A stretch of 64,000 nucleotides of DNA from Carboxylicivirga linearis (lineage in GTDB: Bacteria > Bacteroidota > Bacteroidia > Bacteroidales > Marinilabiliaceae). The notes below the pieces were generated by a model. It ran no database searches and was not told the origin of the DNA. It saw only the letters and a list, made by a program, of their open reading frames with translations. Positions 43,075 through 49,762 of the stretch are shown here, piece after piece. Position 1 is the first letter of the stretch. The number at the start of each line of letters is the position of its first letter. The translations under genes and the position numbers were made by a program. Location: assembly GCF_018271995.1 (NCBI RefSeq), contig NZ_JAGUCO010000002.1, positions 372,001 to 436,000 on the forward strand. The letters are read 5' to 3'.

Positions 43075-43201
43075 CTTTACTTTGTCTTCTGCTCCTAAAC
43101 TGTTAACAGTATTAAAGTTGAAAAAATAGAAATTATCATTCAAATAATATAGAAATTAAAGGACTTTTTGCAGGAATAAATTTCAGACAACTCTTTTTCA
43201 G

Positions 43202-43453
43202 AATATAATGAGCATATCCCATGATAGGATGATAAAAAAACGGGATAGCTTGCTTATATCCCATATTAGAAGGATAATATCCTGAGATATGATGAACGTA
43301 TCCCACATTAGAAAGAGAATATCCTGGGATTTAGTGAACGTATCCCGGGATATTGTCTTTATATCTTGAGATATGGTGTTAAAAAAATGGAATATAATGA
43401 GCCTATCCCTGTTTCACACAATCATATCGTTGGATATGATGATATTCCCATGA
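43202..43453. repeat. Array of twelve degenerate 21-bp tandem repeats
   Basis: The sequence divides without a single insertion or deletion into twelve 21-bp units (starting at 43202, 43223, 43244 and so on to 43433). The approximate consensus is GATATgaTGAacgTATCCC plus two variable bases. Unit junctions form GGGATA / TATCCC inverted repeats, the best being TATCCCGGGATA at 43341-43352. A partial unit follows at 43454. The array fills most of the gap between the PHP gene and RF3. Read as protein it is interrupted by TGA codons. It is not a CRISPR, as there are no distinct spacers. Confidence 0.85.
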
Positions 43454-47816: not shown

Positions 47817-48055
47817 GATCTTTGATACAAAAAACACCGCATCAGTCGTTTTGATTGTTAAACTCAACGCTATCAGAACACCGAGTGACGCTATGCTTTC
47901 TAAGGGCGGGCCTCACCTACGGGTTGCTCTCCGGAGCACGGAGGATTACCGAGGATTGTATGCACTCAAATCCTGTTTTCAGGAGTTTAAATTAATCCCG
48001 GTTGATGTGGTTCTTTATAAAAAAGCGACGTTTCTTTAATGATTCGTCGCTTTTC
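47817..48055 (+). ncRNA. Structured non-coding RNA, 6S-like (Bacteroidales-1 type) candidate
   Basis: About 240 nt between a promoter and a strong terminator, GC-richer than its surroundings and without a credible ORF. The ends pair over a distance: ACCGCATCA (47836-47844) with TGATGTGGT (48003-48011), then GATT/AATC and AAACTC (47860-47865) with GAGTTT (47984-47989). Asymmetric bulges lie between the helices. A small TCCTG-TTTT-CAGGA hairpin lies on the 3' side. A long rod with a central opening is the 6S RNA shape, and Bacteroidota 6S was first described as the Bacteroidales-1 motif. The identity is inference; that it is a structured RNA gene is more secure. Confidence 0.55.
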
Positions 48056-49365: not shown

Positions 49366-49390
49366 TAAATATGCGTTAAGAAAAGAAAAA

Positions 49391-49762
49391 TAGCAAGCCT
49401 GTAAGCCGGGTCCTGTTTCCTTACAAGTAAGGCGTCTATCATTTATCTAAATTAATTGTCACCAATTAATTTAAGCGACCTACCCCTCACAACTTTTCTT
49501 ACGAAAAACAAAACGGGCCGTTCTGCTCCATAGGAATTATGATATACATGGTCTTGCAATCCGCCAGATGTACAGCTACCAATGTTACCACCGGTACTGG
49601 TGAGCTCTTACCTCGCCTTTTCACCCTTACCCTTACGGGCGGTTATTCTCTGTTACATTACTATACTCTCACGAACATCTTCCTCTTCAGAAGGACGGCG
49701 CCCTACATTGCCCAGACTTTCCTCTTTCACATTTGTGACAGCGATAGACCGGCTTGCTATGC
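49391..49762 (-). ncRNA. rnpB: RNase P RNA (class A)
   Basis: Catalytic RNA that matures tRNA 5' ends; about 370 nt. On the minus strand the 5' end ATAGCAAGCC pairs with the 3' end GGCTTGCTA (helix P1). The conserved P4 strand region GAGGAAAGTCTGGGC follows near the start, and the conserved 3' segment containing ACCCGGCTTACAGGCTTGCT closes it. A -7 box TACTTTTG lies just upstream (49765-49772) and a T-rich run follows the 3' end. Confidence 0.95.

Follow-up and report, generated by a model that had tools for sequence, protein, structure and literature searches.

Intergenic tandem arrays in a two-helical-turn register in the genus of Carboxylicivirga linearis: possible rows of phased protein-binding sites

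Introduction

Plasmid iterons are direct repeats of approximately two helical turns, which are bound by protein on one face of DNA and lie next to the rep gene in a replicon. Partition (centromere) arrays, e.g., parC of plasmid pSK41, comprise 20-bp tandem repeats that are bound cooperatively, with one array per replicon and with partner genes. REP and BIME elements are dyad-symmetric intergenic repeats, REPs being dispersed units of one sequence family, and CRISPR arrays have near-identical repeats separated by unique spacers of approximately 30 bp. Porphyromonas gingivalis, a member of the Bacteroidales, is the host of a further type, BrickBuilt. BrickBuilt is a MITE in which a tandem 23-nt repeat is placed between leader and tail segments with terminal inverted repeats, and its intergenic imperfect tandem repeats lack spacers, occupy several loci and vary in unit number between strains (PMC4596501).

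The array studied here lies near prfC in a window of 64,000 nt from the genome of Carboxylicivirga linearis (G000 below); it is referred to as array 1, and its sister array as array 2. Arrays of the genus resemble iterons in being two-turn direct repeats, but are chromosomal and intergenic, have housekeeping neighbors and comprise several different arrays. For array 1 the iteron assignment was rejected, as its neighbors are a PHP-domain gene and prfC, the contig is 562 kb long and no plasmid match was found. Tandem spacing of approximately 20 bp is common to the genus arrays and parC, from which they differ in the presence of several arrays with different units and in that no partner gene was seen. 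With REP and BIME they have intergenic dyads in common, but form long 21-bp tandem arrays rather than dispersed units of a single family, and a CRISPR array was rejected for array 1, since its 21-bp units have no spacers of the CRISPR kind. BrickBuilt is the nearest described case that we found: it agrees with the genus arrays in intergenic tandem repeats at several loci and variable unit number, and is one 23-nt family with ends, compared to approximately 21 bp, unrelated units and no ends found in the genus arrays (PMC4596501). It also comes from the same order. Array 1 was not accepted as a BrickBuilt-type MITE, given a unit of 21 rather than 23, units differing by locus, and no common leader or tail found in the one pair compared, arrays 1 and 2. 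Tandem repeats and minisatellites as such are already well known; unrelated arrays locked to two helical turns are perhaps undescribed, and we found no earlier description of them in the open-licence literature.

Results

Structure of the array near prfC

Array 1 is an intergenic, noncoding minisatellite-type array with a dyad-symmetric motif every two helical turns (Table 1). Its head-to-tail copies are in constant register, as in a minisatellite or tandem repeat, without a single indel between the twelve units. An earlier note, made from the letters of the window, had placed twelve 21-bp units at 43202–43453; the units and their register are real, and the cleanest phase is 43200–43451. The autocorrelation at lag 21 is 0.48, compared to a maximum of 0.41 over lags 10–63 in 1000 dinucleotide shuffles, with further peaks at lag 42 (0.55) and lag 63 (0.52). 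TRF detects only the best-preserved part of the array (43257–43346, period 42, 2.1 copies, score 131), where units 4–5 and 6–7 look like a 42-bp block and its copy.

Table 1. Features of the window around array 1 and Rfam matches above the gathering score.
Feature	Position	Strand	Remarks
PHP-domain gene, 285 aa	42208..43065	-	Pfam PF02811, E 1.2e-17; divergent from prfC
Array 1, twelve 21-bp units	43200..43451	.	consensus GGGATATAATGATCATATCCC, dyad-symmetric; orthologous array in G001 (L040 from 4838)
Units 4–5, first copy of 42-bp block	43263..43304	.	TRF; loops of units 4/6 and 5/7 alike
Units 6–7, second copy of 42-bp block	43305..43346	.	TRF; loops of units 4/6 and 5/7 alike
prfC, peptide chain release factor 3 (RF3), 525 aa	43618..45195	+	Pfam PF16658, E 2.9e-43
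Bacteroidales-1 (suggested 6S) RNA	47844..48018		Rfam
RNase P RNA	49386..49760		Rfam

The array 1 consensus is approximately GGGATAT-N7-ATATCCC, which gives dyad symmetry to the unit and to the TATCCC/GGGATA junction alike (column-permutation p = 0.002). Individual junctions are often broken, Watson–Crick pairs being formed in 36 of 66 junction base pairs, with a mean of 40.8 for randomly paired units. The GGGATA/TATCCC inverted repeat reported at the junctions is thus a feature of the consensus that does not hold for every unit.

Array 2 has the same core and is located 248 kb away on the same contig (G000:C104:166790-167012), beside hcp and a lipoprotein-like gene that has no Pfam match; sister arrays that were read adjoin genes other than those of their partners. 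When 1-kb stretches around arrays 1 and 2 were compared, alignment at E < 0.1 was confined to the repeats, and no leader, tail or terminal inverted repeat common to this one pair was found in these stretches. A genome-wide search for sister arrays, proposed in the earlier note as a check, yielded one, and the family turned out to be wider than guessed, with several arrays common in period but not in sequence.

Orthologous arrays in related species

Orthologues of both arrays are present in a second species (G001), that of array 1 between prfC and the PHP-domain gene and that of array 2 beside the same lipoprotein gene, as in C. linearis. When 60 relatives were searched with a model of 42-bp dimers based on sequence alone, arrays came up in two of the 14 genomes of the genus, namely G000 and G001, at two places each; the best E-value in the remaining twelve was 0.0123. 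Three of the stronger weak model matches, in G006, G011 and G004, as well as two in G018 from the same family (E 0.0019 and 0.011), were not arrays when read. The gap between prfC and the PHP gene measures 552 bp in C. linearis, 581 bp in G001 and 230 bp in a third species (G006), where this gap holds no array. Neither was array 2 found in G006, in the 900 bp upstream of the lipoprotein gene or in the scanned 20-kb stretch holding that gene. As the prfC locus lacks the array in 12 of the 14 genus genomes, the array is dispensable.

The two copies of array 2 are 90% identical and gap-free inside the array. In C. linearis it adjoins a block with hcp, in which 87% of third codon positions agree between the two species, compared to 61% in prfC. 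Identity across the 4.2-kb block (L042 6041–10214 vs. L041 4170–1) is 93%; besides hcp, it carries what look by eye like a Crp-like regulator and an Fe-S protein. Given the mere 61% in prfC third positions, this block was probably exchanged recently between the two species; as it seems recently shared, conservation of array 2 tells little. Array 1 is the older of the two. Adjoining array 2 in G001 is a gene pair resembling nitrite reductase nrfH/nrfA by eye (L041 4250–6157), and a short nrfH/nrfA remnant seems left next to array 2 in C. linearis (L002 1617–1745), as if an approximately 2-kb deletion had ended near the array.

In the global alignment of array 1 between the two species the 21-bp register persists despite the divergence of units, in accordance with the earlier note, the gaps being of 21 and 42 bp with one 3-bp gap in the last unit. 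Neither of the outcomes that the note had listed as speaking against it, absence of a second array and loss of the register, was observed. Over ten unit pairs, half-site (core) columns are identical in 85 of 100 cases and spacer columns in 46 of 90, that is, 85 and 51% (Fisher p = 7e-7). Orthologous pairing of units beats permuted pairing (p = 0.0002 for the core and 0.011 for the spacer); non-orthologous unit pairs give 64% core and 41% spacer identity, so mispaired units could account for part of the difference. The orthologues of array 2 are identical in 137/150 core and 94/107 spacer positions (p = 0.40), those of another array, L130, in 80/90 and 60/69 (p = 0.81). Excess conservation of half-sites is hence present in one of the three orthologous arrays compared, and, since core and spacer identity are equal in the other two, this one array carries the case for constraint on half-sites, which it suggests.

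The L130 array is 88% identical to its G001 orthologue, within a 92% identical block. By eye, the gap orthologous to that of the C. linearis array L192 is free of a corresponding array in both G001 and G004. The same applies to the G001 array L144, which lies upstream of a tpiA-like gene: no counterpart precedes this gene in either G000 or G004.

Arrays in two-turn register in the genus

De novo autocorrelation scanning for any period of 10–70 at a fixed setting was applied to 1,516 kb sampled from four genus genomes (556 kb of G000, 400 kb each of G001 and G004, and 160 kb of G006). Eight of the 61 periods (20–22, 41–43, 62 and 63) were considered as the helical set, a choice made after the window array had been seen. 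Thirteen of the 15 noncoding arrays have a period of 20–22 or 41–43 bp and none of 62 or 63, while approximately two of 15 would be expected in the helical set if the 61 periods were equally likely. By genome, the counts are 7/7 in G000, 3/5 in G001 and 3/3 in G004; the 160 kb of G006 yielded no noncoding array at this setting. Exclusion of the window family (array 1, array 2 and the G001 orthologue) leaves 10 of 12 in the helical set, and exclusion of L122 in G000, by eye possibly a decayed coding repeat, 12 of 14. One shuffle per sample, in six genome samples, gave no arrays at the lower threshold.

In most coding arrays of the genus, the period is a different multiple of three. At the fixed setting, period 21 was seen in one of 18 coding arrays in the four samples, namely L123, whose class is doubtful: the ORF filter calls it coding, and it was left out of the noncoding count, but a closer look places it between two divergent genes. 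At the lower threshold, a period of 21 or 42 is seen in five of the 49 coding matches in G000, G001 and G004. The period had been remarked upon as equal to both two helical turns and seven codons; the existence of noncoding arrays with periods 20, 41 and 43 fits the helix and not codons, and stops were seen in the frames read by eye.

Unit sequences are mostly locus-specific and unrelated between loci. As the earlier note had supposed, the period is what counts; other arrays keep it without a common sequence. Array 1 belongs to a class of arrays in the genus with a common period and mostly locus-specific sequence. In DNA searches of the 14 genus genomes with array 1, L131, L130 and L192 as queries, the first three each detected one additional array in the genome of origin; L192 detected none. 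Matches to L131 and L130 in G001 lie at the orthologous positions; there the array 1 query matched the array 2 orthologue, the array 1 orthologue having been found via the model. None of the four queries had a DNA match at E 0.001 in the other twelve genus genomes.

Outside the genus, six of seven noncoding arrays in 98 kb of G097, from another Bacteroidales family, have periods of 20–22 or 41–43, in a sample biased by the choice of contigs matching model R2. Numerous 21- and 42-bp arrays, some with alternating unit types, lie within these 98 kb (L218–L222). At the fixed setting, the helical set comprises 0/2 noncoding arrays in G018 (40 kb) and 0/2 in G448 (200 kb), and there are no noncoding arrays in G047 (200 kb), G382 (100 kb) or G475 (100 kb). 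In 200 kb of Escherichia coli K-12 one of two arrays is in the set, a period-21 array inside the gene gfcA. The lower threshold gave four noncoding matches in G448, one of them with period 20, and G047 has two coding matches of period 21.

Dyad symmetry, folding and curvature

Of 21 arrays, 13 show dyad symmetry at p < 0.05 and eight show none that is significant, the list including seven G097 arrays, UBA8494 and L123. For array 1, a chain of small hairpins had been suggested; it is not borne out, as pairing within units is not above that of permuted units and the predicted RNA fold is one long nested hairpin. In both G097 arrays tested the loops pair within units above the permuted level (p about 0.01), and core pairing within units is slightly above it in UBA8494 (p 0.03) and G001 array 2 (p 0.04 with G-U pairs).

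Compared to dinucleotide shuffles, array 1 folds strongly on both strands (z –6.6 and –5.2) and array 2 on one strand (z –6.8). Column shuffling weakens the fold in four of nine arrays (both of G000, G001 array 1 and one of G097; p ≤ 0.03), and unit order affects it in one of nine, the window array (p 0.01). Strong folding of both strands follows largely from the repetition of dyads. As pairing within units is at chance level and there is no Rfam match at the gathering score inside array 1, a structured RNA family was rejected for it. Inverted copying of units is unsupported in six of seven arrays, the exception being G097_1 (p = 0.003).

Predicted curvature, calculated with wedge parameters, places array 1 at the 67th and array 2 at the 82nd percentile towards straight DNA among other intergenic regions, and an intrinsically curved element was rejected for both; three of 16 arrays are below the 5th percentile, that is, curved.

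Distribution beyond the genus

The exact two-junction pattern occurs at five loci among 84,980 genomes: L085 (Prolixibacteraceae) has a clear array of the array 1 type, L083 a related array, and the remaining three are two-site palindromes. With two mismatches allowed, seven of the 393 genomes searched in the order carry the pattern, the own genome among them; for the reversed control pattern the count is 2 of 393, and single two-mismatch matches thus carry little weight. At E ≤ 0.001, a 63-column model has matches in six of the 393 order genomes (own included), those in G094 and G177 not being array-like when read, and 2 of 395 genomes of the phylum at E ≤ 1e-4, own included, the second being G642 by the model match alone. 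Arrays with the TATCC/GGATA core in other families are no evidence for a common protein, as that core was used in the search. Neither a DNA search of phages and plasmids with array 1 nor an exact pattern search of viral contigs gave a match. In G064 (L009), a match of 33 bp at 91% falls within a gene that by eye resembles an IS3-type transposase gene; this match is probably due to chance.

Along the array at L083 5390–5900, in a Bacteroidetes genome, the unit shifts from 21 to 62 bp. Two palindromes TATCCTAGGATA 21 bp apart are found at L082 6811, L084 382 and L086 5059 (Gordonibacter, an uncultured bacterium and Enterorhabdus), near genes that by eye look Tat-exported; such a pair is perhaps a two-site operator.

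Discussion

Tandem repeats of unrelated sequence would be expected to show unrelated periods. Most noncoding arrays being at the two-turn period, something reads or makes DNA in two-turn steps, that is, either a protein–DNA architecture not yet described or a helix-dependent way of duplicating DNA; each of the two can be tested in one cultured species. We tentatively favor, with a probability of about 0.4, the reading of arrays as phased rows of dyad sites for a putative protein, since it agrees with the dyad symmetry, the spacing of two turns and the existence of sister arrays. Each array would then be a row of half-site pairs on one face of DNA; the binder might be a dimeric DNA-binding or nucleoid-type protein acting cooperatively, and a sequence-related array at a second locus would be a further target of the same putative protein. 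Binding may affect local chromosome structure or the regulation of flanking genes. As unit sequences differ between loci, this reading would need many binding proteins. For array 1 itself, protein bound on one face of the helix, one of the earlier suggestions, is possible; the interpretation in the earlier note as a whole is partly supported, and the observation behind it is confirmed.

The binding-site reading is placed slightly ahead of a possible neutral one. By the latter, the arrays are functionless minisatellites, formed by slippage, nuclease stagger or template switch in a duplication step that is gated by DNA geometry and copies approximately two turns at a time; as such a step would act at arbitrary intergenic sites, a locus-specific unit with a common period would follow, and units are indeed mostly locus-specific at constant period. 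It is also consistent with the turnover of arrays (L192 and L144 without counterparts in relatives, arrays 1 and 2 missing in G006), with L130 being 88% identical in a block of 92% and with the equality of core and spacer in two of three orthologous arrays. Yet dyads in 13 of 21 arrays and sister arrays for three of four tested are unexpected from random seeds, the core-specific conservation in array 1 also argues against neutrality, and no mechanism that duplicates DNA in two-turn steps is known to us. It is unlikely that small mobile elements similar to the BrickBuilt MITE contain the arrays as their inner part: the arrays are intergenic, form small dispersed families with variable unit number, and G006 could represent an unoccupied site, but strong alignment of arrays 1 and 2 is restricted to repeats, ends are absent from the 1-kb stretches, and phages, plasmids and viral contigs gave no match. 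As units are unrelated between arrays, one element cannot explain all of them.

We consider it rather improbable that the arrays are addresses, i.e., unrelated sequences in two-turn register at a few loci, each read by its own protein that would join matching loci. The period would then be set by a common geometry of protein filaments and the sequence would serve as the address, with two loci seen for three of the four arrays tested. Similarly improbable is a transcribed RNA with repeated stem-loops, such as a structured leader or decoy. The folding of both strands of array 1 and one of array 2 compared to dinucleotide shuffles, the four of nine arrays that beat column-shuffled versions and the pairing of G097 loops within units would agree with it; the permuted-level pairing within units of the window array, the folding of both strands, largely from repeated dyads, the effect of unit order in just one of nine and the lack of an Rfam family at the gathering score in array 1 would not. 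The least credible candidate is a decayed protein-coding repeat of seven codons: it would account for period 21, for partly open frames and for the five of 49 genus coding matches with period 21 or 42 at the lower threshold, but not for noncoding periods of 20, 41 and 43, for other multiples of three in most genus coding arrays, or for stops in the frames read by eye.

The autocorrelation scan is applicable to any genome. Another noncoding stretch of G001 (L152 8873–9010) has period 11 and A+T-rich inverted repeats.
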